A stretch of DNA of 64,000 bases. It comes from Lentzea fradiae (GTDB lineage Bacteria > Actinomycetota > Actinomycetes > Mycobacteriales > Pseudonocardiaceae). Made by a program: the position numbers and the translations under genes. Below, in pieces: positions 14,632-50,380 of this stretch. The notes beneath the pieces were generated by a model. The model had not been told where the DNA came from, did no database searches, and worked only from the letters and a program-made list of their open reading frames with translations. Location: positions 310,001-374,000 of the forward strand of contig NZ_FNCC01000008.1 in the NCBI RefSeq assembly GCF_900100955.1, written 5' to 3'. The first letter of the stretch is position 1. Every line of letters begins with the position of its first letter.

Positions 14632-14654
14632 CCGTTTCGACCGCTCCTTTGTGG

Positions 14655-14694
14655 ACGACAGCGCCCGGTGGGTTCGCCCGCCGGGCGCTGTCGT
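14655..14694 (+). terminator. Strong hairpin after MFS gene
   Basis: Perfect 14-bp stem (arms ACGACAGCGCCCGG and its complement) with a 12-nt loop, starting 24 nt after the MFS stop. No U-tract follows, as is common in actinomycetes. It separates the ligase operon from the indigoidine-synthase-like gene. Confidence 0.65.
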
Positions 14695-14787
14695 GCGTTG
14701 GTGGACGCATACCCCACCGATAGCACTTCGACAGAGGTTCTTCCCACTCTGAAAGGGAATGCGCCGCTGCTATCGAAGGGGGTCGCC

Positions 14788-33037: not shown

Positions 33038-34267
33038 ATGACGGAGTTGTCCGACGTTTCGGCGCGACAAGAACCACAGGAGAGCGGTACTCCGCGACTG
33101 ACCTTTGGCGACGGTGGGGACGCGGTTCTCACGTGGCTCAAGGGGATGCGCGACGACCGCCCCGCGTGGTTCGACGAGTCGAACGGCACGTGGAGTCTGT
33201 TCCGCTACAACGACATCGTCCGGGCACTGCGCGACACGGACACGTTCTGCTCCGACCCGTCGCGCTCGTTGCCACCGGAGATGACCGAGGAGGCCGAGGG
33301 CAGCATCGTCTCGCTCGACCCGCCGCGGCACGGCCGGTTGCGCGGGCTCGTGTCCCACGCGTTCACGCCGCGGCTCGTGGAGCAGCTCGGCCCGCGGATC
33401 GAGGAGATCGTCGACGAGCTGCTCGACCGGGCGCTGGACGGCGGCAGCGGGCGGTTCGACCTCGTGGGCGACCTCGCCTACGAGCTGCCGGTGGTCGTCA
33501 TCGGTGAGCTGCTGGGACTGCCCGCGTCCGATCGGGACTTCCTGGTGCGGTGCGCCGACGAGTTCTACGCGATCGAGCACGACGACCCGTTCAACGGCGA
33601 GTACCTGCAGTCGATGCAGTCCACTTTGGACGAGCTGAACGAGTACATGCTCGACCACGCACGGCGGCGCAGGAACGAGCCCGCCGACGACCTGATGACG
33701 GCGCTCGCACTGGCCGAGATCGACGGCGAGCGGCTGAACGACAGGGAGATCCGCAACTTCGCCGTGCTGCTGCTGACCGCCGGGCACATCACGACGACCG
33801 CGTTGCTGGGCAACACCGTGCTGGCGCTGGGGGAGCACCCCGACGTGATGGCGTCCTGGCGCGACGGCACCGTGAACTCCGCCGCGGTGATGGAGGAGGT
33901 GGTGCGCCACCGCAGCCCGTTCACCGAGGTCTACCGCTTCACCACCAAGGACGTCGAGATCGGTGGCACGGTCATCCCCGCCGACCAGCTGGTGCGCGTG
34001 TGGCTCGTGTCCGGCAACCGCGACGAACGCCAGTTCGCCGACCCCGACGAGTTCCGGCTCGACCGCGCGACCGGCAGGCACCTCGGGTTCGGCCTGGGAA
34101 TCCACTACTGCCTCGGCGCGGGGCTCGCCAGGGTCGAGACCACCGCCGCGTTGCGGGTGCTCGCCCGGCGCACCGCCGGGATCACCCCGGTGCTCGACGA
34201 GCTGAAGTTCTACGACGCCCCCGGAATCTTCTGCCTCCGCAGCCTTCCGGTCACCTTCCACCGCTGA
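33038..34267 (+). CDS. Cytochrome P450
   Basis: 409 aa, soluble bacterial class. I-helix LLLTAGHITTT (the acidic residue before Thr is replaced by Ile-Thr), K-helix EEVVRHRSP (ExxR), and heme loop GFGLGIHYCLGAG with Cys358 as thiolate ligand. ATG 33038 with GAGGGGCGAG upstream. Oxidises a small molecule with electrons from ferredoxin partners encoded elsewhere. It starts the plus-strand run with the methyltransferase 30 nt downstream. Substrate unknown; tailoring of the run's product is likely. Confidence 0.92.
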   Translation: MTELSDVSARQEPQESGTPRLTFGDGGDAVLTWLKGMRDDRPAWFDESNGTWSLFRYNDIVRALRDTDTFCSDPSRSLPPEMTEEAEGSIVSLDPPRHGRLRGLVSHAFTPRLVEQLGPRIEEIVDELLDRALDGGSGRFDLVGDLAYELPVVVIGELLGLPASDRDFLVRCADEFYAIEHDDPFNGEYLQSMQSTLDELNEYMLDHARRRRNEPADDLMTALALAEIDGERLNDREIRNFAVLLLTAGHITTTALLGNTVLALGEHPDVMASWRDGTVNSAAVMEEVVRHRSPFTEVYRFTTKDVEIGGTVIPADQLVRVWLVSGNRDERQFADPDEFRLDRATGRHLGFGLGIHYCLGAGLARVETTAALRVLARRTAGITPVLDELKFYDAPGIFCLRSLPVTFHR

Positions 34268-34297
34268 CGGATCTCACGAGGAAAGCGAGCAGCGCCG

Positions 34298-35137
34298 ATG
34301 TCGAGCACGGACGACCGGACCACCGAGGCCAAGTACGACTACAAGGCCGATGAGGACATGCGCACGGACGTGTGGGACGAGAACCTCCACGTCGGGTACT
34401 GGTCCGGGCCGGAGGACACCAGCGCGGTCGAGGTGGCGACCGACCAGCTCACCGACTTCGTGCTCGAGCGCACTCGCATCGGGGCGGGACAGCGGCTGCT
34501 CGACGTGGGCTGCGGGCTCGGCAAGCCGGCGCGGCGTGCCGCCGAGCGGACCGGCTGCACGGTCGCCGGAATCTCCGACGACCCCGCGCAGGTCAAGCGC
34601 GCCAACGAGGCCGCGGAGGCGGCGGGCGCCACCGAGCAGGTGAAGTTCCTGCACGCGGACGCGATGGAGCCGCTGCCGTTCGGGGCGGCGGAGTTCGACG
34701 CCGCGTGGGCGATCGAGTCGCTCGTGCACATGCCGGACCGGGAGAAGGCGTTCCGGAACATGGCCGCGGTCCTCAAGCCGGGAGCCACGCTCGTGGCCAC
34801 CGACTTCTTCGAGAACGTGCCGTTGACCGGTGAGCGCAAGGAGGCCGTGGACGCGTTCCTGGGCGTCGCGAGCCTGGGGCCGATCCCGCGCCTGGAGGAC
34901 TACCCCGTGCTGCTGCGGTCGACCGGGTTCGAGCTGGTCGAGTTCCTCGACATCACCGAGAACACCCACCGCACGTACGCGTTGTTGCTGCAGTCCTTGT
35001 ACGACACCGAGAAGGAGCTGCGCGCCGACCACGGCGACGCCGTCTACGAAGGATTCGTGAAGGCGTTCAGGGGCTGCGCCGAGTGGCTCGTGCCCCGCTA
35101 CATGCTCTTCGTCGCCAGGCGCTCCGCCGACAGCTGA
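34298..35137 (+). CDS. SAM-dependent methyltransferase
   Basis: 279 aa, class I. Motif I LLDVGCGLGKPARRAA (about 67), VAGISDDP, AMEPLPFGAAEFDAAWAIE, then KPGATLVATDFF. Closest in pattern to RebM/sterol-type O- or C-methyltransferases (Methyltransf_11) of natural product pathways. Only 30 nt after the P450 stop, so co-transcribed. A hairpin follows the gene, perhaps limiting read-through. Substrate unknown. Confidence 0.87.
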   Translation: MSSTDDRTTEAKYDYKADEDMRTDVWDENLHVGYWSGPEDTSAVEVATDQLTDFVLERTRIGAGQRLLDVGCGLGKPARRAAERTGCTVAGISDDPAQVKRANEAAEAAGATEQVKFLHADAMEPLPFGAAEFDAAWAIESLVHMPDREKAFRNMAAVLKPGATLVATDFFENVPLTGERKEAVDAFLGVASLGPIPRLEDYPVLLRSTGFELVEFLDITENTHRTYALLLQSLYDTEKELRADHGDAVYEGFVKAFRGCAEWLVPRYMLFVARRSADS

Positions 35138-35159
35138 CCCCTGCGGCACGTCCACCACT

Positions 35160-35185
35160 CCCGCGCGGCCGTTCGGCCGCGCGGG
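35160..35185 (+). terminator. Hairpin after methyltransferase
   Basis: Perfect 11-bp stem CCCGCGCGGCC, loop GTTC. A run of six T's follows only 14 nt later, so it is not a textbook terminator. It may partly separate P450/methyltransferase from the genes downstream. Confidence 0.5.
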
Positions 35186-35226
35186 TGATGACGCACGCGT
35201 TTTTTCCTCCCCGACAAGGAGAAGTC

Positions 35227-36000
35227 ATGAAGAAGTCATCGCTCGCCCTTTCGTCCGTCCTACTGGCACTGACGGCGACGCTGGTCCCGGCGTCCGCGTA
35301 CGCCGCCGGCTCCTCGGTCGTCGTGACCTCGGAGGGCGACTGCCTGGAGTTCGGCGAGATCACCCAGATCACCACGGCCCAGGCCCGTGCGCTCGTGCCG
35401 TCGCGGTACAAGGTGCGCGAAGCGGACGGTACACCGGGCAAGGTCAACGTCTACATGGGCGACTACTCGTGCGACGGCATCTCCGTCAACGGTGGCCGAG
35501 CGAAGCCGACCATGATCACGATGGCGACGGTCGAGATCTCCCACCGCGACGGCGTCGAGCAGCCGTGGGGCACGACGCAGCCGCTGTGGTGGGGCACGAA
35601 CCAGCCCGCGCTCACCGACGCCGTCCAGCGGCTCGGCGCGCCCGCGCGACACGTCCAGGCCACAAGAAAGATCACACGCCTGCCCAACGGGATGCTGTTA
35701 GTGCACAACAAGTACAGCGGGTCCAAGGTGGACCACGAGCGCATCGCCGTCGTCGAGGACATCTCGTCCCAGCCCGTGCAGAACTTCGGCACGCCGACCG
35801 GGTACTACACCGGTACGAAGGGTGAGATCGAGTTCGTCTACGACATGCAGTTCCGCGCCAAGGAGAACGCCGCGAGCTCGATCCTGGTGTCGGGTCCCCA
35901 CACCGACCTGGTCCGCAAGTACGGGTTCCCGATCACGCTGACGTCGAAGAACACCTTGATGACCGGCAAGTGGACCATGCGGGCCGAGCTCAAGCGCTGA
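35227..36000 (+). CDS. Secreted protein of unknown function
   Basis: 257 aa. Signal peptide MKKSSLALSSVLLAL, cleavage after AYA at about residue 26. The rest is beta-rich with conserved-looking Trp cluster (QPWGTTQPLWWGTNQP, about 117) and only two cysteines (GDCLEF, YSCDGI) that may pair. Strong AAGGAG before ATG 35227. No family recognised. It lies 25 nt before the ACP gene, so it belongs to the same run. Export implies an extracytoplasmic binding or processing role for the product. Confidence 0.75.
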   Translation: MKKSSLALSSVLLALTATLVPASAYAAGSSVVVTSEGDCLEFGEITQITTAQARALVPSRYKVREADGTPGKVNVYMGDYSCDGISVNGGRAKPTMITMATVEISHRDGVEQPWGTTQPLWWGTNQPALTDAVQRLGAPARHVQATRKITRLPNGMLLVHNKYSGSKVDHERIAVVEDISSQPVQNFGTPTGYYTGTKGEIEFVYDMQFRAKENAASSILVSGPHTDLVRKYGFPITLTSKNTLMTGKWTMRAELKR

Positions 36001-36024
36001 CGCGACGTGGGCCCGGGGACACCG

Positions 36025-36282
36025 ATGAGCAACGAGGCAGTGCGTGAGGCCGTGCACGGGATTCTGCGGCACATGTCGTACGGGGACGCGGAAGAGCTGT
36101 CCGACGAGGCGCGGATCGCCACCGATCTGGGGTTCGACTCGTTGCGGCTGCTGGAGCTCGCCATCGTCATCGAGGAGCGGTTCGAGCTCGCCGCCGTCGA
36201 CGTCGACGAGGCGCTCACCGTCTCGACGGTGCGGGAGCTGGTCGACCTGGTCACCGAACGCGTGGCGGGGACGGCGGCGTGA
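36025..36282 (+). CDS. Acyl carrier protein
   Basis: 85 aa. Carrier signature DLGFDSLRLLELAIVIEERF with Ser39 as phosphopantetheine site. Three-helix pattern, acidic. It carries an acyl or aminoacyl chain as thioester. ATG 36025 is preferred over GTG 36007, with GGGGAC upstream. Its stop overlaps the start of the reductase (GTGA), so the pair are made together; this makes acyl-ACP the likely reductase substrate. No PKS or NRPS accompanies it, so the chain must come from fatty acid synthesis or an unlinked ligase. Confidence 0.9.
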   Translation: MSNEAVREAVHGILRHMSYGDAEELSDEARIATDLGFDSLRLLELAIVIEERFELAAVDVDEALTVSTVRELVDLVTERVAGTAA

Positions 36283-37379
36283 GCGGGCTGCGCGTCCTCG
36301 TGACCGGTGCGGCCGGGTTGGTCGGTGCCGAGGTCGTGGCGAGGCTGGCGGGTGAGGGTCACACGGTCCTCGCCCTGGTGCACAAGAGGCCGGCGATCGT
36401 GCGCAACGACGGTGAGGTCGTGCGCACGGTCCCGGCCGGGCAGTCCGGGCCGGGGCTCGTGTCCTGTGTGGCCGGTGACGTGACGAAGCCGATGCTCGGT
36501 CTCACCGCCGAGCGCTACGAGGAGCTGGCCGCAGGCGTCGACCGCATCGTGCACTCCGCGGCCACCACGGACTTCGGCCGGCGTTGGGAGACCTACGAGT
36601 CGCTCAACGTGGACGGCACGCGCAACGTCGTCCGGCTCGCCTCGGAACGTGCGGTGCCGCTCGTGCACGTGAGCACGGCGTACGTCTGCGGAGAGCGCAC
36701 GGGCCGGGTGCTGGAGGACGACCTCGACGTGGGCCAGCGGTTCGGCACCGGCTACGAGCGCAGCAAGTTCCTCGCCGAACAGGAGGTCAGGGCCGCCGCC
36801 ACACCCGTGGCGGTGGTGCGGCCGAGCATGGTCGTGGGCACCCAGGAGTCCGGGGTGATCCGCGACTTCAAGAACATGTACGTGGTGCTCAAGCTGTTCA
36901 CGCAGGGGCGCGTCAGGTCGGTGCCGGGCTTCTACGACGCCCTGCTCGACCTGGTGCCGGTGGACTACGTCGCCGCGTTGATCTGCCAGGTGGTGAACCG
37001 GTTCGACGAGGCACGCGGGCTCACCTTCCACGCAGTCGGGGCCGCTCCGCACACGTTGCTCGACGTGAGCAACGCACTGGCGGAGTACCCGATGTTCGAG
37101 GTGCCGCACTACGTCTCGCCGTCCGCGTTCGACGTCGACGCGCTGCCACCGGACGAACGCGTCTACTACCGGCGGATCATCGCGATGTACGAGAGCTTCT
37201 TCCGCAGGCGAGCCAGGTTCGACGACACGAACGCGGCGCGGCTGGCACCGTGGCGCCCGGAGGCGACCGGCGTGGACTACCTGCGCACGCTGCTCGACCA
37301 CTGCGTCCGGGTGGGCTACCTCGGTCGTGCCGAGGCGGGCATCGGTGACGTGCTGCGCCTCACCGGCGGGCCGCGGTGA
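36279..37379 (+). CDS. Fatty-acyl-reductase-like / thioester-reductase-like SDR
   Basis: 366 aa extended SDR. NAD(P) motif LVTGAAGLVGAEVVARL at the N-terminus; VHSAATTDFG; VDGTRNVVRLA; VHVSTAYVCGERTG; catalytic Tyr-Lys in YERSKFLAEQ (about 160); VVRPSMVVGTQESG; and DLVPVDYVAALI. The last two are hallmark NAD_binding_4 motifs of fatty acyl-CoA reductases and NRPS reductase domains. It should reduce an acyl thioester to aldehyde or alcohol. Coupled to the ACP (GTGA) and to the next gene (GTGA). Start GTG 36279. Confidence 0.8.
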   Translation: MSGLRVLVTGAAGLVGAEVVARLAGEGHTVLALVHKRPAIVRNDGEVVRTVPAGQSGPGLVSCVAGDVTKPMLGLTAERYEELAAGVDRIVHSAATTDFGRRWETYESLNVDGTRNVVRLASERAVPLVHVSTAYVCGERTGRVLEDDLDVGQRFGTGYERSKFLAEQEVRAAATPVAVVRPSMVVGTQESGVIRDFKNMYVVLKLFTQGRVRSVPGFYDALLDLVPVDYVAALICQVVNRFDEARGLTFHAVGAAPHTLLDVSNALAEYPMFEVPHYVSPSAFDVDALPPDERVYYRRIIAMYESFFRRRARFDDTNAARLAPWRPEATGVDYLRTLLDHCVRVGYLGRAEAGIGDVLRLTGGPR

Positions 37380-38155
37380 TCGCCGCGACGCGGTACGTGC
37401 GGCTGCGGTTCCCGCCGCGGACGCACGGGCTCGCCGCGGTGCTGACCTACGCGAGCGTTGTTGCGCTGAGCGTCCGCACGTGGCCCGGCGTGGTCCCGCT
37501 GCTGCTCGGCGGGATCACGTTCGTGTCGCTGTTCCTCTTCCTGCGCCTGGTCGACGACCTCGACGACGGCGAGGCGGACGCGGCGGGACTGCGGGCGGGC
37601 ATGGTCGCCGTGGCCGCCGCCGTGGTGCTGCTCAACCTCCAAGACCACCTGGCCCTCGCCCTCGCGGGTGGGGCATGCGCCGCCGCCCTCGCGGCACCGT
37701 TCCTGCCGCGCCACGGGATCAAGCAGCCCGTGGTCCTCTTCGTCGCCTACGAGGTGGCACCGCTGCTGGTGCTCGCGTACGGCGGCGTGACGGCGGGAGC
37801 ACCCCCGACGGTGGCCGTGGGGGCGGCGGTGGTGCTCTGGAGTGCTTACGAGCACTGGAAGTTCACGCGGAAGCTCGACGAGCCGGACTACCGGCCGTTC
37901 GGTCTGGGCCAGGGCGCCCGGCTCGTCGCGGCGGGGGCGTTGTCGGCCACCGGGGTGGTCGTGGCGGCGCTCATCGCGGTGCCGTGGGTGGTCCCGGTGG
38001 CCTTGGGGCTGCTCGCCGCCGCCTTCGCGGCCGGGGCGCTCTCGTGGTGGAGGGCCGGTCGCCGCGGAGGGACGTGGTGGTCGGGGCTGACCTACGTGCT
38101 CGCCGTCGACCTGGCGGTCCTGGTCCTGTGTACGACGTGGGGAGTGTGGGAATGA
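37376..38155 (+). CDS. UbiA-like polytopic membrane protein
   Basis: 259 aa with about eight to nine membrane segments. The first Asp-rich motif LRLVDDLDDGEAD sits after span 2, as in UbiA prenyltransferases (NDxxDxxxD), and a second polar cluster KLDEPDYRPFG lies after span 6, where UbiA has its second Asp motif. UbiA enzymes transfer a prenyl or alkyl group from a diphosphate donor at the membrane, using Mg held by these Asp. The motifs are imperfect, so I rate the family call as moderate. GTG start overlaps the reductase; its stop overlaps the next gene (ATGA). Confidence 0.6.
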   Translation: MIAATRYVRLRFPPRTHGLAAVLTYASVVALSVRTWPGVVPLLLGGITFVSLFLFLRLVDDLDDGEADAAGLRAGMVAVAAAVVLLNLQDHLALALAGGACAAALAAPFLPRHGIKQPVVLFVAYEVAPLLVLAYGGVTAGAPPTVAVGAAVVLWSAYEHWKFTRKLDEPDYRPFGLGQGARLVAAGALSATGVVVAALIAVPWVVPVALGLLAAAFAAGALSWWRAGRRGGTWWSGLTYVLAVDLAVLVLCTTWGVWE

Positions 38156-40782
38156 CGGCAGTGACGAGCGAGGTGGACGGCGCCAAGGCGCGCGGGCTGC
38201 GCGAACTGGCCGACGCCGGGTTCGTGGTGCCGCCGTGGCACGTGATCGGCGCGGACGTCCTGCGCCGCCACCTGGACACGACCGGTCTCGCCGGCCTGAT
38301 CGGCGACGAGCTCCGCGACCTCACGGCGGATCGTGCGGAGTCCGCGTCCGCCGCCGTGACCGAGGCGGTCCTGAAGACCCCGCTGGGGCCGGACGTGCTG
38401 GCCGAGATCGCCTCCGCCGTCGACGCGGTCGGCGCGGGGCCGGTCGCGGTGCGGTCGTCCGGGCTCGACGAGGACGGCCCGCGGTTCTCCTTCGCGGGCC
38501 AGTTCGACACTTTCCTGAACGTGGAGGGACTCGACGCGGTCGCCGAGCACGTGCGGCGCTGCTGGGCGGGCGCCTACTCGGCCCGCGCCCTCGCGTACCG
38601 GCTCGCCCACGGCCTGCCGCCGGGCGGCGCGGGCATGGCGGTGATCGTCCAGCGGCTGGTGGTGGCGGAGAAGAGCGGGGTGCTGTTCACCGCGAACCCG
38701 ATGTCGGGCGAACGGGCCGAACGCGTGGTCAGCGCGGTGTTCGGACTGGGCGAGGGACTCGTCGGCGGCGCGGTGGACGCCGACACCGTCGTGCTCGACC
38801 CCGCCGGGAAGGTCCTCCAGGTCACGGTGGGGGAGAAGCGCGAACGGTACGACCCGGACGCCTCCGGGGGCTGCCGGGTGACCGAGACCGCCACCGCGGT
38901 GCGGGACGAGCTCGCGGTGACCGACGCCGAGCTGCGCGAGCTCGTCGAGCTCGCGGGCCGGATCGAGGAGGCGCGCGGCGCCCCGCAGGACGTGGAGTGG
39001 GCGATCGCGGACGGCACCCTGTGGGTGCTGCAGAGCCGGCCGGTCACCGCGGGCCTCGACGAACCCGGCGAGCTGCACGTCTGGGACAACTCCAACATCA
39101 TCGAGAGCTTCCGCGGCATGACCTCGCCGCTGACCTACAGCTTCGCGCGCCGCGTGTACCAACGCGTCTACGAGGAGTACTGCCGCGAGCTGAAGGTGCC
39201 CGACGCGCAGCTGAGCCAGGCGCAGGAGTGGCTGCCCGCGCTGCTGGGCTACTTCCACGGGCGCGTCTACTACAACCTGCTGAACTGGTACCGGCTGGTG
39301 CGCCTCGCCCCGCTGTACCGGCTGGGCCGCCGCAGCCTGGAGCTCACCCTCGGCGTGGAGGAGTCGCTCGATTCCGAGCTGGCCGACGAGCTGCGCCCGT
39401 TCACGTTCGGCTCGCGCGCGGAGGAGATCCGCGTGACCGCGCGGTCACGGCTGCGGTTCGCGAGCAGGTTCGCGATGATCGAACGCACCGGCGAGCGGTT
39501 CATCGAGGACTTCTACCGCACCTACGAGGAGTTCGGCGCCACGGACTACGACGCGCTGACCGCCGACCAGGTCTACCGCCGCTACCAGGCGCTCGAACGC
39601 ACGCTGGTCGCGCGCTGGGGCCGGGTCGCGGTGCTCGACGCGGTCATCGGGCTGTCCTTCGGGACGTTGCAGCAGCTCAACCGGCGCTGGCTGCCCGACG
39701 CCCCGATGTGGTTCACGTGGGCGGTGGCGGGTCCGGCGAACTCGGTCGAGTCGGCGGGTCCCGCGCACCGCATCGCCGAGCTCGCGGCCGTCGTGCGGGC
39801 CGACGAGGAACTGCGCCGCATCGTCATCGAGACCGACCCGGCGCACGCCAGGAAAGCGTTGCTGGACGGCGGGCACACCGCTTTCGTGTCCGATGTGGAC
39901 GACTACGCGGCGCGCTACGGCGACCGCAGCCTCGACGAGCTGAAGCTGGAGGCGCCGAGCCTGCGCGACGACCCGTCGACGTTCTTCCCGATGCTGCGGG
40001 CCGCCGTGGCGTCGGTGGAGAGCATGTCGGGACGGGCCGACGCCGACGCCGTCGTCGCGGGGCTGTCCCCGGCGCGGCGGCAGGTGTACGAGCGGGTCAG
40101 GGGCAAGGTGCGCAGGGCACTGGAGCTGCGCGAGCGCATCCGCTTCTGCCGCACCCGCGCGTTCGGCACGGCGAAGGTGATGATCAGGGCGATCGGCCGC
40201 CGGTTCGCCGAGATGGGGCTGATCGACGCGCCCGAGGACGTCTTCTGGCTCTACCTGGAGGAGATCGGCGGGTGCTTCGACGCGTCCACTGTGGACACCG
40301 ATCTGCGGGCACTGGTCCGTGCGCGCAAGGCCGCCGCCGAGTCGGACCGCCTGCTGACCGCGCCGTCCCGCTTCACCACCCGCGGCGCCGTCGGCACCAG
40401 GGCGAACCGGGCCGCGTGGGCGCGTGCCGTTCCCGGAGGCACCGCCGCGGCGGCGGGGGCGGAGTTCACCGGCGTGCCCGCCGGACCGGGCCGGGTGCAG
40501 GGCCGTGCGCGGGTGGTCGAGCTGCCTTCGGAGGCCCAGGGCGACATCCTCGTCACCTACCGCACCGACCCCGGCTGGGTGGCGTGGCTGCCGTCCGCCT
40601 CCGGCCTGCTCGTCGAGCGCGGCAGCCCGCTGACCCACGTCGCCATCGTCGCCCGCGAGCTGGGCGTGCCCACCGTGGTGCAGGTCCCCGGCCTGACCAC
40701 CCGCGTGCGCGACGGGATGCGCCTCGACGTCGACGGCGGGACGGGGAGCATCCGCGTGCTGGCAGGACCGGAGGAGTCGTGA
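38152..40782 (+). CDS. Rifampin-phosphotransferase-like dikinase (PEP-utilising)
   Basis: 876 aa in three parts: PPDK-type ATP-binding domain (residues about 10-310; AVRSSGLDEDGPRFSFAGQF, LQSRPV at its end), a central helical domain of about 430 aa, and the C-terminal swivelling domain with ERGSPLTHVAIVAREL, where His829 would carry the phosphate. Length and order match rifampin phosphotransferase, which moves the beta-phosphate of ATP onto an alcohol hydroxyl. PEP synthase is shorter in the middle and has a TIM-barrel at the C-terminus, absent here. In this operon the target is probably an alcohol intermediate. Substrate specificity of the middle domain is unknown. Confidence 0.8.
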   Translation: MTAVTSEVDGAKARGLRELADAGFVVPPWHVIGADVLRRHLDTTGLAGLIGDELRDLTADRAESASAAVTEAVLKTPLGPDVLAEIASAVDAVGAGPVAVRSSGLDEDGPRFSFAGQFDTFLNVEGLDAVAEHVRRCWAGAYSARALAYRLAHGLPPGGAGMAVIVQRLVVAEKSGVLFTANPMSGERAERVVSAVFGLGEGLVGGAVDADTVVLDPAGKVLQVTVGEKRERYDPDASGGCRVTETATAVRDELAVTDAELRELVELAGRIEEARGAPQDVEWAIADGTLWVLQSRPVTAGLDEPGELHVWDNSNIIESFRGMTSPLTYSFARRVYQRVYEEYCRELKVPDAQLSQAQEWLPALLGYFHGRVYYNLLNWYRLVRLAPLYRLGRRSLELTLGVEESLDSELADELRPFTFGSRAEEIRVTARSRLRFASRFAMIERTGERFIEDFYRTYEEFGATDYDALTADQVYRRYQALERTLVARWGRVAVLDAVIGLSFGTLQQLNRRWLPDAPMWFTWAVAGPANSVESAGPAHRIAELAAVVRADEELRRIVIETDPAHARKALLDGGHTAFVSDVDDYAARYGDRSLDELKLEAPSLRDDPSTFFPMLRAAVASVESMSGRADADAVVAGLSPARRQVYERVRGKVRRALELRERIRFCRTRAFGTAKVMIRAIGRRFAEMGLIDAPEDVFWLYLEEIGGCFDASTVDTDLRALVRARKAAAESDRLLTAPSRFTTRGAVGTRANRAAWARAVPGGTAAAAGAEFTGVPAGPGRVQGRARVVELPSEAQGDILVTYRTDPGWVAWLPSASGLLVERGSPLTHVAIVARELGVPTVVQVPGLTTRVRDGMRLDVDGGTGSIRVLAGPEES

Positions 40783-42413
40783 TCATCGACCGCGCGGAGC
40801 TCACCGCGCTGCTCGGCGAGACGCTGGACCTGGTCGAGGCGCCGCCGGGGTGCGCGGCTGTGCTGGAGGGCTCGATCGCCGAGGGGTTCGGCAACTCCGC
40901 CTCCGACGTCGACTTCCTGCTGCTGGCCGACGACGACCACGACCATCCGACGATGCCCACGATCGTGTTCGCCCGCGGACGCCGCGTCGAGGTGCGCACC
41001 CGCTCGCTGCGGCAGGTCCGCGAGCAGGCCGACGAGGTGTGCGCGCACGTGGCGGAAGGGTTCGGCGGGCTGCCCGCGGCGTTGCTCGACCGGTGCCAGC
41101 GGTTGCGCGGTGCCGTGGTGCTGCGCGGCGACGACCTCGTGCGACGGGCGCGGAAGTGGCCCCTGTCGCTGTCCGAGGTCGTGTCGGGCTGGTACGCGCA
41201 CCACAGCAGGCAGGCGATGCGCCACGCGGTCGCGTCGTCCGTGCTGGGTGAGGGCCGCGAAGCCCTGGCGTGGGCCGGGATCGCGGCACGGCACGCGGCG
41301 AAGTCGTGGGTGGCGGCGCGGGGAGAGACCTACCTGGAGCCCAAGTGGCTCGACCGGCAGTTCGACCGGCTGGTCGCCGGTGGTGACCAGGAGGCGGCGG
41401 CACTGCGGGACCGTCTCGCCGCCGTGCGGCGAGGAACCGCCGGGATCGAGCAGGCGGTCGCGGCACACGCGGAGCTGGTCGCGGACTTCGGCGTCGACGG
41501 CTGCCCGGCCGACGCCGCCCGCGTGCTGCTCGGTCTGCGCGCGGGCGTCACCACCTGGCCGATCGGCGGACGTCTGCACGTGGTGCGGGACAGGGCCGAC
41601 GTCTTCGTGCTGGGTCCGTCCGCCGGACGCACGTGGCGTTCGATCTCGCCGGGACGCCCGGTGGCCGAGGTGCTCAAGAGCGCGGAGGACCCCGCGGCGG
41701 CCGCGGGCGCGCTGGCCGAGTTCCACCGCGTCGGGCTCGTCGAGCTGCACTGGCGTGACGGCGGGCCGATCTCCTCCGCCCAGCCCTGGGCGCCCTCCGA
41801 GCCGGTCACGCCGCCGCCGTCCGCGCGGATGCCGGTCCTCGGCCTCGCCGGCGGCACCGCCGACGGGCACCTGTCACTGATCCCTTTGCCCGCCAAGCGG
41901 TTCGCGGCGGCGGGGATGGCGCTGGTGTGGTCCAACATCATGGTCGAGAACGCGCGGGAGGACCTGTCGGGAGCGTTCGACGGCGGGCAGCGGGAGGTGG
42001 CGCGGACGAGCGGGACGCGGTTGCTGCACCACGCCTGCCGCGTCGTGCTGAGCGCGTGCGGGACGAGCCCGTTGCCGCCCGACGCCGCGATCGTGGCCGG
42101 GCTGGACGCGTCGGCCGCGGTGCCTGCGGACCTCGCCGCGCTGGCCACCGCCGTCGAACGCGACCTCGGTGGCGACGGGTGGGAGACCTGGCTGGACCGG
42201 CTGGACGAGCTCGTCGGCGGGGTGCGGGACCTCGTGCGCGCCGAGGTGTTCCCGGCGTCGTTCGACTCGGCCGCCGCCTGGGAGGCCACGCTGCGGATCG
42301 GGCACGACTGGATCCGGCTCGGCGCGTACCTCGACGCGGACTTCCCGATCGAGGAGGCCCGCGACCTCCTCACCTCCGGCGGGGCCCAGCCGCACCGGCG
42401 TGGCGGCGGGTGA
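40779..42413 (+). CDS. Pol-beta-type nucleotidyltransferase, large and multidomain
   Basis: 544 aa. N-terminal nucleotidyltransferase motif GSIAEGFGNSASDVDF gives Gly31-Ser32 and catalytic Asp43/Asp45. A helical segment of about 80-220 follows (AHHSRQAMRHAVASSVL), then a winged-helix-like stretch with FHRVGLVELHW, then 180 aa of unassigned helices. The minimal enzymes of this family AMPylate or nucleotidylate proteins and small molecules. GTG 40779 overlaps the dikinase stop (GTGA). In the operon it could transfer a nucleotide to a phosphorylated intermediate or control a partner enzyme. Not assignable further. Confidence 0.72.
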   Translation: MIIDRAELTALLGETLDLVEAPPGCAAVLEGSIAEGFGNSASDVDFLLLADDDHDHPTMPTIVFARGRRVEVRTRSLRQVREQADEVCAHVAEGFGGLPAALLDRCQRLRGAVVLRGDDLVRRARKWPLSLSEVVSGWYAHHSRQAMRHAVASSVLGEGREALAWAGIAARHAAKSWVAARGETYLEPKWLDRQFDRLVAGGDQEAAALRDRLAAVRRGTAGIEQAVAAHAELVADFGVDGCPADAARVLLGLRAGVTTWPIGGRLHVVRDRADVFVLGPSAGRTWRSISPGRPVAEVLKSAEDPAAAAGALAEFHRVGLVELHWRDGGPISSAQPWAPSEPVTPPPSARMPVLGLAGGTADGHLSLIPLPAKRFAAAGMALVWSNIMVENAREDLSGAFDGGQREVARTSGTRLLHHACRVVLSACGTSPLPPDAAIVAGLDASAAVPADLAALATAVERDLGGDGWETWLDRLDELVGGVRDLVRAEVFPASFDSAAAWEATLRIGHDWIRLGAYLDADFPIEEARDLLTSGGAQPHRRGGG

Positions 42414-42417
42414 GGGG

Positions 42418-43101
42418 GTGTTCGTCGCGCTGGAGGGGATAGACGGGGCGGGCAAGACCAGCACCGCCGCCGAGGTGGCCGCCCGGCTCCGCGACAGGGG
42501 ACAGGCGGTGCGGCTGGTCCGCCACAACGCCGCCGAGCCCGACGACCCGTTCGTCGCCGAGTACCTGGAGGGGCTGCGCGCGTTGCAGCAGATGTCGTTG
42601 CGCGGCCCGTACTTCCGGCTCGGCGACCCGCACTGGGTGCTGATCAGGGCGAGCTACTACGCGCTCGTCGACCGGTGCGTGGTCACCCCGGCGCTGGAAC
42701 GGGGACAGGTCGTCGTCGCGGACGGCTGGTTCCACAAGTTCGTCGCCCGCGTCGCGGCGGGCGGGGTGCGGGAGAGCGGGGACTTCGACCGGCCGGAGCA
42801 GATCCTGCCGCTGTTCGCGCCGGTGCGGCGGCCGGACAGGGTGTTCCTGCTCGACACGCCCGTGGCCGTGGCCGCCGCGCGCCGGATGGCCGACGTCAAC
42901 CCCGGTGAGCTGGGACCGCAGAACGCGGAGACCTCCACTCCCGAGACGGCCTTCGTCACCTACCAGAGCGCGGTGCGCGGGCACCTGTTGTCGATGGCGG
43001 TACCCGGCCGCTGGCACGTCGTGCGCACGGAGCTGCGGGACGTGGCCGGCATCGCGGCCGAGGTGTGCGCCGACGTGGAAGTGTTGCGGGAGGCGGGATG
43101 A
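42418..43101 (+). CDS. Thymidylate-kinase-like P-loop kinase
   Basis: 227 aa. P-loop FVALEGIDGAGKTST right at the N-terminus, as in dTMP kinases, followed by a lid-containing core and LLDTPVAVAAARRMAD in the C-terminal half. The DRxxxS region is altered (VVADGWFHKFVARV), so thymidylate may not be the substrate. Such kinases phosphorylate a monophosphate to a diphosphate. GTG 42418 is preferred; GTG 42400 overlaps the upstream gene. Its stop overlaps the acyl-CoA dehydrogenase start (ATGA). Its place after a dikinase suggests it adds the second phosphate to the same intermediate. Confidence 0.75.
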   Translation: MFVALEGIDGAGKTSTAAEVAARLRDRGQAVRLVRHNAAEPDDPFVAEYLEGLRALQQMSLRGPYFRLGDPHWVLIRASYYALVDRCVVTPALERGQVVVADGWFHKFVARVAAGGVRESGDFDRPEQILPLFAPVRRPDRVFLLDTPVAVAAARRMADVNPGELGPQNAETSTPETAFVTYQSAVRGHLLSMAVPGRWHVVRTELRDVAGIAAEVCADVEVLREAG

Positions 43102-44228
43102 ACGACTACCGAGCGAGGATCCGCCGGGTGGTCGCGGGGTTCGTGCCCGACATGCCGTCCTGGGAGCGGGACGGGCACCTGCCGCGCGAGCTGTTCCGCG
43201 CTCTCGGGGAGGCGGGAGCGTTCCGCGAGCGGTGGGCGCTCGGGCCGGTGGGCGGACTGCCGCGGGCACGGGTGCTGGTCGAGGAGCTGGCCGTCCACAA
43301 CGGAGGCGCGGCACTCGCGGTGTCGTTGCACAGCGAGGTCTTCCTGCACGCCCTGCACCGCGCGGGCGGGCACGACGAGGTCGTCGAGGGCGCCCTGGAC
43401 GGGACGGTCATCGGGTGCGCGGCGGTGACGGAGCCCGGTGCCGGGTCCGACGTGCCCGCCGTGACGACGTCCGCCCGGCGCGAGGGAGACGGGTGGCGGC
43501 TGACCGGCACCAAGTGCTTCATCACCAACGCGGGCCGGGCGACCCACGCGCTGGTGCTGGCGAAGACGGGCGAGCCGCGGTCGTTCGGGCTGTTCGTGGT
43601 GCCGCTCGCGGGCGTGACGCCCACCCGGTTCGTGCCGACGCTGGGGGTCAGGTCCGCCGACACCGCCGTGCTCGACCTGGACGTGACCGTGCCCGCCACC
43701 GCCGTGGCCGGCAACCCCCGAGCCGGGCTGGTGCACCTGCTGCGCGTGCTCGACTTCGAACGGCTCGCCGCCGCTGCCGGTCTGGTCGCCACCGCACGGG
43801 CGGCGATGACGCTGGCCGTGGCGCACATGCGCGACCGGACCGCCTTCTCGGCGCGGCTGATCGACCACCAGGCGCCGCGGCACCGCCTCGCGTGGCACTG
43901 GGCGCGCGTGTCGGCGGTCGACGCGCTGCTCGACGCGGCGATGGCGCCGGGGCACGGGGGCGAGGTGTCGCACTCCGCCGCGGCGGCCGTGAAGCTGGTC
44001 GCCGCCAGGGACTGCGCCGACGCGGTCGACGCGGCGCTGCAGGCGTTCGGCGGACGCGGGTACTCGGAGGACTTCCCGCTCGCGCGGATGTACCGCGACG
44101 TGCGGCTCACCCGGATCGGCGGTGGCACCGACGAGGTGCTGTGCGAGGTGATCGCCTCCACCCTCGACGCCGACGACGCGGCCGGAACCGCGCTGCTGCG
44201 CGACATCGCCGGACGGAGCGGGTGGTGA
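43098..44228 (+). CDS. Acyl-CoA/acyl-ACP dehydrogenase
   Basis: 376 aa flavoprotein. AVTEPGAGSDVPAV (family signature 1, about 113), GTKCFITNAG, and C-terminal ALQAFGGRGYSEDFPLARMY with RIGGGTDEVL. The catalytic Glu of MCAD (YEGT) is Gly here, as in the long-chain/isovaleryl group, where the base lies on another helix. It removes two hydrogens to give an alpha,beta-unsaturated acyl thioester. Coupled to the kinase. The only carrier in the run is the ACP, so it may act on acyl-ACP, as in pyrrole and enamine biosynthesis. ATG 43098. Confidence 0.87.
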   Translation: MNDYRARIRRVVAGFVPDMPSWERDGHLPRELFRALGEAGAFRERWALGPVGGLPRARVLVEELAVHNGGAALAVSLHSEVFLHALHRAGGHDEVVEGALDGTVIGCAAVTEPGAGSDVPAVTTSARREGDGWRLTGTKCFITNAGRATHALVLAKTGEPRSFGLFVVPLAGVTPTRFVPTLGVRSADTAVLDLDVTVPATAVAGNPRAGLVHLLRVLDFERLAAAAGLVATARAAMTLAVAHMRDRTAFSARLIDHQAPRHRLAWHWARVSAVDALLDAAMAPGHGGEVSHSAAAAVKLVAARDCADAVDAALQAFGGRGYSEDFPLARMYRDVRLTRIGGGTDEVLCEVIASTLDADDAAGTALLRDIAGRSGW

Positions 44229-44673: not shown

Positions 44674-45390
44674 TCACTTGCCCGTGTTCTCGGCCCACCA
44701 CTGGGACCACCGCTTGTCGAGCAGGGAGTACGCGTCGTCGTCCAGGCCGTAGGTGCTCAGCAGCGCCATCGACGTGCCGGACGGGTCGGTCGAGGAGGGG
44801 CCGGTGCCCGCGATGACCAGCAGGCCCTCGCCCCACGAGTCGACCGTGAGACCGAGCTGGTGCTCGGAGCGGAACCACACCTCGCCCTCGACCGCCTCGC
44901 CGGCCAGGGTGGCGGTGTAGCGGCTGCCCGGCTCACCGGCCGAGTCCAGCGCGAGGCGTTCGACGACGGTGCCCGAGTAGGTGTCGCGGTTGCCGAAGAA
45001 CAGCGTGCGCCGCTGCTCGCCGGGCTTGCGCTCCAGGGCGAACCGCAGCTGGTGCAGGAACGAGGTCCAGCCCTCGGTGACGTCGTCGTAGTAGGCGTCC
45101 CACTCGGCGTCGCCGCTCAGCGGGGCGCGGACCAGCGTGATGAGGACGCCGTCGCTCTCCTCGGTGATCTCGAACCGGTCACCGCCGTTGGGGACGAGCG
45201 TGTGGTTCGCCTCGTCCTCGACGACGTCGGTGAAGTAGATCGAGTCGAGCTCGGCCTCCAGCTCACCGGACTGCCACGCGTGCCACTGCCTGATCACGTC
45301 CTTGTCCCGCAGTGCCCGCCAGGCGGCGTCGACCGTCGTCGCCACCCGGACCTGCAGTCGCGGGGTGTCGGTGGCCTGGACGTCACTCAT
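44674..45390 (-). CDS. SRPBCC (AHSA1-like) protein
   Basis: 238 aa. N-terminal VRVATTVDAAWRALRDKDVIRQWHAW is the AHSA1 opening; YDDVTEGWTSFLHQLRFALER is the C-terminal helix of the fold, then about 100 aa more, rather long for the family. Start ATG overlaps the ArsR stop (ATGA), so it is co-expressed with the repressor. Function unknown. Confidence 0.78.
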   Translation of the reverse strand: MSDVQATDTPRLQVRVATTVDAAWRALRDKDVIRQWHAWQSGELEAELDSIYFTDVVEDEANHTLVPNGGDRFEITEESDGVLITLVRAPLSGDAEWDAYYDDVTEGWTSFLHQLRFALERKPGEQRRTLFFGNRDTYSGTVVERLALDSAGEPGSRYTATLAGEAVEGEVWFRSEHQLGLTVDSWGEGLLVIAGTGPSSTDPSGTSMALLSTYGLDDDAYSLLDKRWSQWWAENTGK

Positions 45391-46080: not shown

Positions 46081-47085
<1,005 letters not shown>

Positions 47086-47152
47086 GAGCCGACCTTGGCA
47101 AGCCAGGAGAAGCCGGTGTTCCGCTGTCTTGCCGATCCTGGAACGCGCACGG

Positions 47153-47247
47153 GGAGGCGTATCCGGTCTGGTGTCCGGCGCGGTCTTCAACACCGACGGG
47201 CGGCAGGACCTGCCGCCGGCGGGTTCGATTCCCGTCCGCCTCCGCCA
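47153..47247 (+). tRNA. selC: tRNA-Sec (anticodon UCA)
   Basis: 95-nt tRNA. 5' acceptor GGAGGCG pairs with CGCCTCC before discriminator G and encoded CCA (47245-47247). Short D arm CCGG/CCGG. Anticodon loop CTTCAAC has TCA. Very long extra arm: a 7-bp GGCGGCA stem with a 5-nt loop. T arm GCGGG-TTCGATT-CCCGT. An eighth acceptor pair (T47160/C47236) would be a mismatch. The long variable arm and UCA anticodon are diagnostic of selenocysteine tRNA. It lies 20 nt upstream of selA. Confidence 0.93.
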
Positions 47248-47267
47248 CAGACGACGGTGGAGGCTGC

Positions 47268-48542
47268 ATGACGCGGCGGAGCATCCCGGGCACCGGGGCC
47301 CTGCTCTCCTCCTCGCCGTTGCGCGAGGCCGTGGCGGTGCACGGGCGCACGGCGGTCAAGGCGGCGATCCACAAGGCCCAGCAGGAGGCTCGCGAGGGCC
47401 GCCTGAGTTCCGAGGACGTCGCGTCGGCCGCGTTGGCCGCGCTCAGCCGCCTCGTCGCACGGCCGGTGCTCAACGCCACCGGCGTGCTGATCCACACCAA
47501 CCTCGGCCGCGCACCGCTGTCCGAGGCCGCCCGTGCCGCGCTGTCCGCCGCCGCGGGGTGGACGGACGTCGAGTTCGACCTCGCCACCGGACGCCGTGCC
47601 GCACGGGGCAGGGGAGCCCTCGCGGCCCTGGGCGAGGCCGTCCCCGACGCCGGGGCGGTCCACGTCGTGAACAACAACGCCGCCGCCCTCCTGTTGTGCG
47701 CCTTGGCGTTGGCGCCGGGACGCGAGATCGTGATCAGCAGGGGCGAGCTGGTCGAGATCGGCGACGGCTTCCGCATCCCCGAACTGCTGACCGCGGGCGG
47801 AGCGAGGCTGCGCGAGGTCGGCACCACCAACCGGACCACCGCCCGCGACTACGCCGCCGCGATCGGGCCGGACACCGGGTTCGTGCTGAAGGTGCACCCG
47901 TCGAACTTCCGCGTCGAGGGCTTCACCTCGGCCGCGAGCGTGGCGGAGCTGGCGGGCCTCGGCGTGCCGGTCGTCGTCGACATCGGCTCCGGACTGCTCG
48001 CCCCCGACCCGAGGCTGCCCGGCGAGCCGGACGCGGCCTCGGCCCTGCGTGCCGGTGCGGCCCTGGTGACCGCGAGCGCCGACAAGCTGCTCGGCGGACC
48101 CCAGGGCGGGCTCCTGCTGGGCGACCGGGACCTCGTGACCACGCTGCGCCGGCATCCGGCGGCACGGGCGCTGCGGGCAGGGAAGCTGGTGCTGGCCGCC
48201 CTGGAGGCGACGCTGCGCGGACCGCTGCCACCCGTCGCGGAGATGCTGTCGGCGGACGCGGACTCCTTGCGGCGCAGGGCTCACGCGGTCGCCGCGGCGG
48301 TGCGGGGCGCCGAGGTCGTCGAGACGGACTCGGTGGTGGGCGGCGGCGCCGCGCCGGGGGTGCGGCTGCCCAGCTTCGCCGTGGCCCTGCCGGAACGGTT
48401 CGCCGCGGCGCTGCGCGCGGAACGGGTCGTGGGACGGGCCGAAGGCGGCCGGTGCCTGCTCGACCTGCGCACGGTCGACCCGGCCGACGACGAGGCGCTG
48501 GTGCGCGCGGTCCTCGCGGCGGGCGACCCGCGGTGCCGGTGA
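47268..48542 (+). CDS. selA: L-seryl-tRNA(Sec) selenium transferase
   Basis: 424 aa PLP enzyme. N-terminal RSIPGTGALLSSSPLREAV, then PVLNATGVLIHTNLGRAPLS; the PLP lysine is Lys273 in SADKLLGGPQGGLL; TTNRTT upstream. Converts Ser-tRNA(Sec) to Sec-tRNA(Sec) with selenophosphate. GGTGGAGG site before ATG 47268. Its stop overlaps the selB start (GTGA). Confidence 0.95.
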   Translation: MTRRSIPGTGALLSSSPLREAVAVHGRTAVKAAIHKAQQEAREGRLSSEDVASAALAALSRLVARPVLNATGVLIHTNLGRAPLSEAARAALSAAAGWTDVEFDLATGRRAARGRGALAALGEAVPDAGAVHVVNNNAAALLLCALALAPGREIVISRGELVEIGDGFRIPELLTAGGARLREVGTTNRTTARDYAAAIGPDTGFVLKVHPSNFRVEGFTSAASVAELAGLGVPVVVDIGSGLLAPDPRLPGEPDAASALRAGAALVTASADKLLGGPQGGLLLGDRDLVTTLRRHPAARALRAGKLVLAALEATLRGPLPPVAEMLSADADSLRRRAHAVAAAVRGAEVVETDSVVGGGAAPGVRLPSFAVALPERFAAALRAERVVGRAEGGRCLLDLRTVDPADDEALVRAVLAAGDPRCR

Positions 48543-50380
48543 TCGTGACCGCCGGGCACGTCGACCACGGCAAGTCCACCCTGGTGAAGGCTTTGACGGG
48601 CAGGGACCCCGACCGCTGGGCGCAGGAACGGGCCCGCGGCATGAGCATCGGGCTCGGCTTCGTGTGGACCCGGCTGCCCGGCGGCGCCGAAGTGTCCTTC
48701 GTGGACGTTCCCGGCCACCGCAGGCTGGTGTCCACGATGCTCACCGGAGCCGCTCCCGCCCCGGCCGTGCTGTTCGTCGTCGCCGCGGACGAGGGCTGGT
48801 CCGCCCAGTCCGCCGAACACCTCGCGGCCCTCGACGCCCTGGGCATCGCCCGCGGCGCGCTGGTGGTCACCAAGTCCGACCGCGCGGACCCGCGTCCCGC
48901 CGCCGCCGAGGCCCGCCGGGAGCTGGCGGGCACCTCCCTGTCCCACCTCCCGCACTTCGCGGTGAGCGCGGTGACCGGTGCCGGGATGCCGGAGCTGCGC
49001 GCGGGCCTGGACGCCGTGGTGGCGGGTCAGGACGAGGCGGCGGACGACAACGCGGACGTGCGGCTCTGGGTGGACCGCTCGTTCACGGTGGCCGGTGCGG
49101 GCACCGTCGTCACCGCCACCCTCGCGGCCGGGTCGCTGCGCCTCGGCGACCGGCTTCGCTGTGCGCGCACCGGTGCGCTGCTCCGGGTGCGGGGCTTGCA
49201 GGTGTGCGAACGCCCGGTGGCCGTCGCACGCCCGGTCCGCAGGGTGGCGGTGAACCTGGCGGGCGGCCGTGTGGACGTGCGTCGCGGCGACGCGCTGCTC
49301 GCACCGCCGGAGGTCTGGCGTCCGGTGGAGGAGTTCGACGTCGTGTGGTGTGGCGGTGCGCCGCGCGCTTCGTCGCTGACGTTGCACGTCGGCACCGCGG
49401 GCGTGCCCGTGCGGGTGCGCCCGCTGGGACCGGGGGCGGCGAGGCTGCGGACCGCGAGCGAGGTGCCGGTGCGGCCCGGTGACCGCGTGTTGCTCCGCGA
49501 CCCGGGAGGCACCGGGCCGCCGGTGGGGGCGGTGGTCGTCGACGTGCGGCCGCAGGAGCTGACCCGGCGGGGCGCGGGCGCGCGCCGAGGCGCGGAGCTG
49601 GCGGCCCTGGCCGGGCTCGCCACCACCGTGCCGCCGCAGCCGGGCGCCGTGCCGCCGCAACCGGGCGCCGCACCACCACCGGCCCCAGCCCACCGGCACG
49701 CGCCGCGCCTGGACCCGGCCCAACTCGCCGCCGATTTGCTGAGGCGTGAGAAGTTCCTGGCCGCGGAAGCCTTCCGCTCCGCCGGGCTCCCCGTCACCGG
49801 ACGGCCGGTCGCGGGAGGCCGGTACGCGGACCCGGCCACGTGGGAGTCGCTCGCCGGGCAGGTGCCGCGCGAGGTCGCGGACTGGTGCGCCGCACGGCCG
49901 CTGGCGCCGGGTATCCCGTTGCCGGTGCTCGCCGACCGGCTCGCGGTGCCGTCGGCGGAGGTGGCCCGCGAGCTGGTGCGGGCCGCCGGTCTGCCGGTGG
50001 AGGACGGTGTCGTGGTGGGGCGTCTCGCGCTGCCGGAGTCCGTCGAGAGAGGACTCGCGGCGATCGCGAAGTCGTTGCGGCGAAACCCCTTCCGCGCTCC
50101 CGAGTCACATCACCTGGCACGGGCGGGGCTCGGTGCGGCCGAGCTGGCCCGTGCGGTCCGGGCGGGCCGTCTGCTCCTCCTCGCGCCCGGCGTGGTGCTG
50201 CTGCCGGGGGCGGACCGGCTGGCCGCCGAGGTGCTGCGGGGGTTCGCCGGTTCCTTCACCGTCAGCCAGGCGCGCCAGGCGTGGGACACGACGCGCCGCA
50301 CCGCCGTGCCGCTGCTCGAACTGCTGGACCAGGCGGGGGTCACCCGGCGCCGGCCGGACGGCGCGAGAGAGCTCACATAG
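48539..50380 (+). CDS. selB: Selenocysteine-specific elongation factor
   Basis: 613 aa. GTPase domain: P-loop GHVDHGKST (residues 6-14), DVPGHRR, TKSDRAD. Domains 2-3 follow (FTVAGAGTVVTATLAAGSLRLGD), then a Pro-rich linker (VPPQPGA repeated twice) and winged helices at the C-terminus (SVERGLAAIAKSLRR, SQARQAWDTTRRTAVPLLELLD) that bind the SECIS hairpin. Delivers Sec-tRNA(Sec) at UGA. GTG 48539 overlaps the selA TGA; GTG 48533 is an alternative. Confidence 0.95.
   Translation: MIVTAGHVDHGKSTLVKALTGRDPDRWAQERARGMSIGLGFVWTRLPGGAEVSFVDVPGHRRLVSTMLTGAAPAPAVLFVVAADEGWSAQSAEHLAALDALGIARGALVVTKSDRADPRPAAAEARRELAGTSLSHLPHFAVSAVTGAGMPELRAGLDAVVAGQDEAADDNADVRLWVDRSFTVAGAGTVVTATLAAGSLRLGDRLRCARTGALLRVRGLQVCERPVAVARPVRRVAVNLAGGRVDVRRGDALLAPPEVWRPVEEFDVVWCGGAPRASSLTLHVGTAGVPVRVRPLGPGAARLRTASEVPVRPGDRVLLRDPGGTGPPVGAVVVDVRPQELTRRGAGARRGAELAALAGLATTVPPQPGAVPPQPGAAPPPAPAHRHAPRLDPAQLAADLLRREKFLAAEAFRSAGLPVTGRPVAGGRYADPATWESLAGQVPREVADWCAARPLAPGIPLPVLADRLAVPSAEVARELVRAAGLPVEDGVVVGRLALPESVERGLAAIAKSLRRNPFRAPESHHLARAGLGAAELARAVRAGRLLLLAPGVVLLPGADRLAAEVLRGFAGSFTVSQARQAWDTTRRTAVPLLELLDQAGVTRRRPDGARELT

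Follow-up and report, generated by a model that had tools for sequence, protein, structure and literature searches.

Natural phosphotriesters are a great rarity. In salinipostins and cyclipostins a bicyclic enol phosphate bears a long alkyl ester; cyclophostin, of the same class, is a methyl ester (3-methoxy). According to the accessible part of PMC6681047, class products carry C15 or C16 phosphate esters (cyclipostin P is a hexadecyl ester), inhibit serine hydrolases and show both antimalarial and anti-mycobacterial activity. The salinipostin cluster of Salinispora tropica, spt, is given as RS20900-RS20940, 11.1 kb, "butyrolactone, salinipostin" in the accessible part of PMC7888443. If numbered in fives, this range would hold nine locus tags. 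We take spt to be a nine-gene cluster in which Spt9 is an AfsA homologue (butenolide synthase). Here, we analyse 64,000 nucleotides of Lentzea fradiae (contig NZ_FNCC01000008.1, positions 310,001 to 374,000; this whole stretch is called the window, and coordinates refer to it) and focus on a seven-gene operon at 36025-44228. We think it rather probable that this operon is a relative of spt without AfsA and that it builds a phosphate di- or triester of a long-chain alcohol. This reading is based on protein families, a UbiA fold, active-site residues, co-occurrence and gene fusions.

The operon and the salinipostin cluster

The seven genes are as follows.

36025..36282, + strand: acyl carrier protein (ACP); PP-binding 7.4e-9, DSL serine at residue 39
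36279..37379, + strand: NAD_binding_4 thioester/fatty-acyl reductase (FAR); PF07993 2.8e-45, GAAGLVG at 10, YERSK at 159; homologue at 71 of 74 loci
37376..38155, + strand: divergent UbiA-superfamily membrane protein (UBI); R57, D60, D64, R165 and K166 invariant in a 36-sequence alignment
38152..40782, + strand: dikinase of the PPDK/RPH type (DIK), phospho-His829; PPDK_N 4.7e-72, PEP-utilizers 8.8e-21
40779..42413, + strand: pol-beta-type nucleotidyltransferase (NT); D43, D45 and E71 invariant in a 32-sequence alignment; natural fusions
42400 or 42418..43101, + strand: thymidylate-kinase-fold kinase (TMK-like); PF02223 1.7e-8, Walker A GIDGAGKT, DGW
43098..44228, + strand: acyl-CoA/acyl-ACP dehydrogenase, MbtN-like; PF00441 1.3e-34, MbtN model 158 bits (cut-off 700)

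A preliminary description of this DNA had called these seven plus-strand open reading frames (ORFs), and all are present as called. Its families for the ACP, reductase, dikinase, kinase and dehydrogenase were borne out by Pfam (PP-binding, NAD_binding_4, PPDK_N plus PEP-utilizers, Thymidylate_kin and Acyl-CoA_dh, respectively), and the residues it named (ACP Ser39, dikinase His829 and the DDLDDGEAD of UBI) were found, with the YxxxK of the reductase and the Walker A motif of the kinase also in place. In the same scan UBI had no match and NT only sub-threshold ones. From ACP to dehydrogenase the intergenic distances are -4, -4, -4, -4, then the NT/kinase pair, then -4 nt; five of the six adjacent pairs thus overlap by exactly 4 nt, as previously described, and the exception is NT/kinase, with a 14-nt overlap (GTG start at 42400) or a 4-nt gap (GTG start at 42418).

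Four Salinispora loci hold a dikinase, AMP ligase, NT, ACP, FAR, NDK-like kinase, UBI, luciferase-like reductase and AfsA (profiles in all four, Pfam in L066). We take them as spt because of this gene content, the size of L066 (11.06 kb between the called start of the dikinase and the end of AfsA, against 11.1 kb) and the AfsA matches, which in each of the four genomes lie at a single place with coordinates fitting the locus. The preliminary description knew of no described pathway with this gene set. That statement is not supported, as the dikinase, NT, ACP, reductase and UbiA-like gene are common to the Salinispora loci matching the salinipostin cluster. A literature search gave no title on this gene set, though salinipostin and cyclipostin papers surfaced; most subscription papers were beyond reach, so the absence means little. 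The search also found no assay of the phosphate chemistry of a salinipostin-type pathway.

Profiles of the NDK-like kinase, AMP ligase and luciferase-/nitroreductase-type reductase had no match in window 25001-50000, and AfsA (PF03756, E up to 0.001) had none in the whole genome of the window. As a control, PF03756 matched in five of seven other genomes, four of them Salinispora. AfsA was not found in the genomes of L. waywayandensis and Plantactinospora either.

Distribution of the gene set

The gene set is conserved, in support of the preliminary description: a scan of a genome collection with the NT alignment gave 74 loci, of which two share a Kutzneria chromosome, and the whole gene order recurs in Lentzea. 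The loci fall in two phyla (65 in actinomycetes, 7 in Paraburkholderia/Burkholderia and 2 in Methylobacter). Genes were counted by six-frame profile searches with bit thresholds. The core is NT (74 loci), dikinase (73), FAR (71) and UBI (70); the variable part is AfsA and NDK-like kinase (50 each), ACP (38), AMP ligase (37) and nitroreductase (33), followed by luciferase-like reductase (8), acyl-CoA dehydrogenase (6) and TMK-like kinase of the window type (5). The dikinase was not found at L095, FAR at L093, L095 and L110, and UBI at L063, L084, L095 and L110; contig ends truncate L084, L095 and L110. The pairwise distances of NT, DIK, FAR and UBI correlate (r of 0.84-0.96) across 68 loci, the window's among them.

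Within the host's family, NT as probe matched 7 of 200 genomes, the window's own among them. The reverse search with UBI matched 14 of 200 (15 matches), of which 7 were new. All seven new loci carry a dikinase among their called genes, directly adjoining UBI in six. Each also has an AfsA-like gene scoring 39-248 bits, which Pfam confirmed in L128, L129, L130, L131 and L134. NT and FAR are absent or weak there except at L134, which has FAR, ACP and weak NT matches. With a single UbiA-like protein as query, a class-wide search gave 3 of 296 genomes (its own and two marginal) and a plasmid search gave none.

The UbiA-like gene is present in 6 of 24 Lentzea genomes, and four Lentzea loci of the scan, besides the window, have the complete gene order. 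The copy in the sixth Lentzea genome (G498; L119 and L120, G498:C1 6255001-6276000) seems frame-broken: the UbiA-like gene and dikinase share one ORF, NT is in two pieces, and the upstream P450, methyltransferase and secreted protein described below are missing. In an NT tree of 72 rows, Lentzea groups with Plantactinospora (100/99) outside a mostly AfsA-bearing clade (97/96), and four Nocardiaceae-type AfsA-less loci branch within that clade, among which L084 lies on a truncated contig. Drawn from its midpoint, the tree gives no direction, and several AfsA-less rows are long-branched.

Some AfsA-less loci have further neighbours. The same core genes occur in Paraburkholderia/Burkholderia (L094, L096-L099, L102 and L109), together, at L098 (Paraburkholderia), with a Coq4-like protein, a fatty acid desaturase and an RND-type pump (the pump named by eye). 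At L073 and L093 the core genes lie beside PurA-like and HprK-like genes, and L073 also has a PurB-like gene (names by eye), which suggests yet another head group.

Kinase type and head group

The kinase varies with the head group. NDK-like kinase and AfsA occupy exactly the same 50 loci, so that the NDK-like gene is found at 50 of 50 AfsA loci and at 0 of the 24 others. In addition, one ORF of 656 aa (L134:11354-13324) encodes both an NDK-like domain and an AfsA of two domains in a single fused protein. Among the 24 AfsA-less loci, 13 have another kinase, 8 have no modelled type and 3 are cut contigs. The other kinases are TMK-like in Lentzea and Plantactinospora (5 loci) and in Methylobacter (2 loci, L100 Pfam-checked), HprK-like at 2 loci (named by eye) and another P-loop protein at L091; three Rhodococcus/Gordonia/Antrihabitans loci have two kinases each, both TMK-fold by Pfam in L080 and by profile in the other two. 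A 22-bit TMK match at L099 lies on the other strand and was not counted. This pattern speaks against the earlier proposal that the kinase makes an alkyl diphosphate. Given the NDK-AfsA link, a kinase phosphorylating the alkyl chain was set aside, and it survives within one of the alternatives below.

A second type of locus is informative about the other enzymes. Four AfsA loci of the same family (L128, L129, L130 and L133) keep dikinase and UBI and carry an ICMT/PEMT-like membrane methyltransferase, which the 87 stretches collected at first all lack. No ACP, NT, NDK or close FAR was found among the called genes of these four loci, and L128 has a weak FAR-like SDR (33 bits). These are possibly cyclophostin-type (methyl phosphotriester) clusters. 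Because dikinase and UBI persist where ACP, NT and a close FAR were not found, the two may act on the head phosphate rather than on the fatty alcohol.

The UbiA-like protein, dikinase, nucleotidyltransferase and kinase

Fold comparison and homologues give UBI a UbiA fold, which upholds the preliminary call of a UbiA-like protein. A Pfam UbiA search of the window genome found five matches elsewhere and missed the protein at 37376 because it is too divergent. Profile-profile comparison with the host's own UbiA proteins reached 13% (weak) for the Lentzea-type subset of UBI against 88% for the whole family; the fold comparison is the stronger evidence. UbiA enzymes usually have two Asp-rich motifs. 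The first is kept in UBI, with R57, D60 and D64 among the invariant residues, while at the place of the second only R165-K166 is invariant in 36 sequences, joined by E159 and K162 in the 13 Lentzea-like ones.

The dikinase has an ATP-grasp domain, a mobile domain and the catalytic histidine, as PPDK/RPH-type enzymes do, and scores 1042 bits with NF004881 (cut-off 883), with His829 conserved. PEP synthase (phosphoenolpyruvate synthase) has a C-terminal barrel that binds phosphoenolpyruvate (PEP) or pyruvate. At E up to 0.1, PPDK_N and PEP-utilizers are the only matches of the window protein, so identity as PEP synthase was dropped despite the NF004881 score; rifampin inactivation was also considered and dropped. 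Enzymes of this type work through a histidine, by way of a pyrophosphoryl- and then a phosphoryl-enzyme, and move the beta-phosphate of ATP to a hydroxyl (PMC12167813, accessible part).

NT has the GS...DxD...D/E signature, with S32, D43, D45 and E71 invariant in 32 sequences. Against the PDB it had no match by sequence and only chance-level ones by profile. Fusions tie it to its neighbours: NT is joined to the AMP ligase at seven loci besides the cut contig L095 (L063 Pfam-checked), and a metagenome protein of 797 aa (P0031) joins NT to a TMK-like kinase, 49% and 51% identical to those of the window. The P-loop is present in the TMK-like kinase. dTMP kinases carry a DR(Y/H) motif at the dTMP site. 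Here DGW (residues 102-104) replaces DR in the window and the six other organisms scoring above 300 bits (7 distinct organisms in 12 rows, the list holding repeat copies of genomes), which makes thymidylate an unlikely substrate as judged from the sequence; thymidylate salvage was dropped for lack of the DR motif. The weaker Methylobacter kinases have no DGW. With their active-site residues kept, His-dikinase and kinase chemistry is plausible.

A proposed pathway

From the families, the dehydrogenase would 2,3-desaturate an acyl-ACP and the NAD_binding_4 enzyme would reduce it to a fatty, perhaps 2-enyl, alcohol. A phosphorylated, non-butyrolactone head would have its phosphate activated by the TMK-fold enzyme and NT, as comparison between the clusters suggests, and the fatty alcohol would then esterify the activated phosphate. 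The dikinase and UBI may form a core pair for the phosphate/diphosphate step (esterification or ring closure), common to alkyl-type clusters and to those with a methyltransferase instead; judged from gene content, activation by kinase and NT would be dispensable where S-adenosylmethionine (SAM) supplies the methyl group. The P450 and methyltransferase would tailor the product. Altogether, the fatty alcohol is probably attached via phosphate to a molecule other than a butyrolactone. We extend this only tentatively to the AfsA-free clusters of Lentzea, Plantactinospora, Actinomadura, Nocardiaceae, Paraburkholderia and Methylobacter, which could make an unrecorded class of alkyl-phosphoester natural products with non-butyrolactone heads, the UbiA-fold enzyme forming a phosphoester from an alcohol of fatty-acid origin (which in Lentzea may be 2-enyl) rather than transferring a prenyl group.

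Several points weigh against this relationship to spt. The Salinispora loci are identified as spt by gene content, size and AfsA, and an AMP ligase is missing from the window cluster. No modelled kinase was seen at 8 of the 21 uncut AfsA-less loci (seven in Paraburkholderia/Burkholderia and one in Nocardia), so that a kinase step is not general, and the methyl-type locus L130 does have a kinase, chloramphenicol-phosphotransferase-like. As the 74 loci were collected via NT, its presence at all of them is a matter of selection, and the 7 loci found with UBI have no close NT (weak matches at L134). UBI and DIK lie within 300 nt of each other at 8 of the 70 loci having both. Lastly, "AfsA-less" describes the locus: whole-genome AfsA searches among AfsA-less hosts covered the window host, L. 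waywayandensis, Plantactinospora and Actinophytocola, and in Actinophytocola (L073) AfsA genes do occur, at other places in the genome than the AfsA-less locus.

The fatty-alcohol arm and alternative explanations

The preliminary description proposed a fatty allyl diphosphate: an acyl-ACP is desaturated, reduced and phosphorylated by dikinase and then kinase, and UBI transfers the chain to an acceptor in a prenyl-like alkylation. In part it is supported, in that ACP and reductase, with active-site residues kept, plausibly make a fatty alcohol; the allylic requirement and the diphosphate-making kinase are not. The UbiA fold of 37376 fits such a transfer, as do the kinase-NT fusion in P0031 and the near-constant company of NT with FAR, DIK and UBI (71, 73 and 70 of 74 loci). 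The gene order of Lentzea, Nocardia mexicana (L063) and Actinomadura terrae (L091), each with a dehydrogenase beside FAR and ACP, makes a 2-enyl alcohol plausible there, and the desaturase at L098 could serve the same end. Yet no dehydrogenase of this type is present at 68 of the 74 loci (other desaturating enzymes were not searched systematically), and the UbiA-like family thus does not require a 2-enyl alcohol. The alkyl chains of the salinipostin class are generally saturated. With comparable dehydrogenases at only 6 of 74 loci and C15 or C16 alkyl phosphate esters as class products (PMC6681047, accessible part), the earlier argument that a UbiA enzyme needs an allylic diphosphate is not supported for UBI. 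Kinase type tracks AfsA, some loci keep DIK and UBI although a close FAR was not found in them, and at the place of the second Asp motif all 36 relatives have only R165-K166 in common. We therefore judge this pathway unlikely.

Decaprenyl-phosphate phosphoribosyltransferase, a UbiA relative, takes a lipid phosphate as nucleophile and a diphosphate as donor. If UBI worked alike, the dikinase would make a fatty alkyl phosphate and the head-specific kinase a head diphosphate, and attack of the first on the second would release pyrophosphate and leave a phosphodiester. A butyrolactone head would require displacement at an unactivated carbon, 8 uncut loci have no modelled kinase at all, and other UbiA structures fit better, which together make it improbable. 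It is very improbable that these genes serve ordinary membrane lipids or the inactivation of an antibiotic (as a PEP synthase or a rifampin phosphotransferase, with a salvage kinase) and are neighbours by chance: NCBI does call the dikinase family "phosphoenolpyruvate synthase", with a cut-off the protein passes, and the domain order is RPH-like, but the set travels together at 74 loci in two phyla and in 6 of 24 Lentzea, and the Pfam scan shows no PEP/pyruvate-binding domain.

Probable accessory genes and other neighbours

Three more genes lie 5' of the ACP gene on the same strand, with gaps of 30, 89 and 24 nt.

33038..34267, + strand: cytochrome P450, probable accessory gene; PF00067 1.9e-26; kept in 5 of 6 Lentzea
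34298..35137, + strand: SAM methyltransferase, probable accessory gene; PF08241 2.2e-20; kept in 5 of 6 Lentzea
35227..36000, + strand: secreted protein without an assigned family (signal peptide called by eye); kept in 5 of 6 Lentzea

The Pfam scan of 35215-36000 gave no match for the secreted protein. Because all three are kept in five of six Lentzea, the transcription unit is probably 33038-44228. Downstream, an SRPBCC-like gene (by eye; 44674-45390) has full-length matches only in the same six cluster-bearing Lentzea genomes and a partial match (53%) in a seventh (G476); this search across Lentzea gave no boundary for the cluster. Elsewhere in the window are selenium genes (46081-50380: an AIR-synthase-related, SelD-like protein, SelA and SelB), a separate candidate cluster (9806-18603: a PALP enzyme, two ATP-grasp-type ligases, an MFS protein and an AMP-binding/PP-binding/thioesterase protein) and a ketosynthase-bearing gene that starts at 62593 and runs past the window end (64000).

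Comparison with known systems

Phosphoester machinery at AfsA-less loci of actinomycetes and proteobacteria would mean that the phosphate-ester step is separable from butyrolactone making, and searches keyed on AfsA would overlook these clusters. The varying choice of kinase (NDK, TMK-like or another), and of either a fatty-alcohol arm or an ICMT-like methyltransferase, also offers a testable way to assign roles.

Taken singly, the enzymes resemble and depart from known ones. UbiA prenyltransferases, including DGGGP synthase and the membrane phosphoribosyltransferase, differ from UBI in the second Asp motif, which is not seen here, and no isoprenoid genes are among the Pfam/NCBIfam families found in the operon. 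The RPH, HpeHI and PpsAB dikinases have the same ATP-grasp and mobile phospho-His domains (PMC12167813, accessible part), whereas the window type occurs with UbiA-like genes. MbtN-type acyl-ACP dehydrogenase is the best NCBIfam match of the window dehydrogenase, yet at 158 bits it is far below the cut-off of 700.

The closest system as a whole is salinipostin biosynthesis. Both clusters bring together homologous dikinase, NT, ACP, NAD_binding_4 reductase and UbiA-like genes, and a fatty alkyl chain and phosphate chemistry would be expected in common. The window cluster, in contrast, is without AfsA, the luciferase-/nitroreductase-type reductase, the NDK-like kinase and the AMP ligase, and adds a TMK-fold kinase, an acyl-CoA dehydrogenase, a P450, a methyltransferase and a secreted protein. 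By gene content, it appears close to the known salinipostin class and yet outside its definition.

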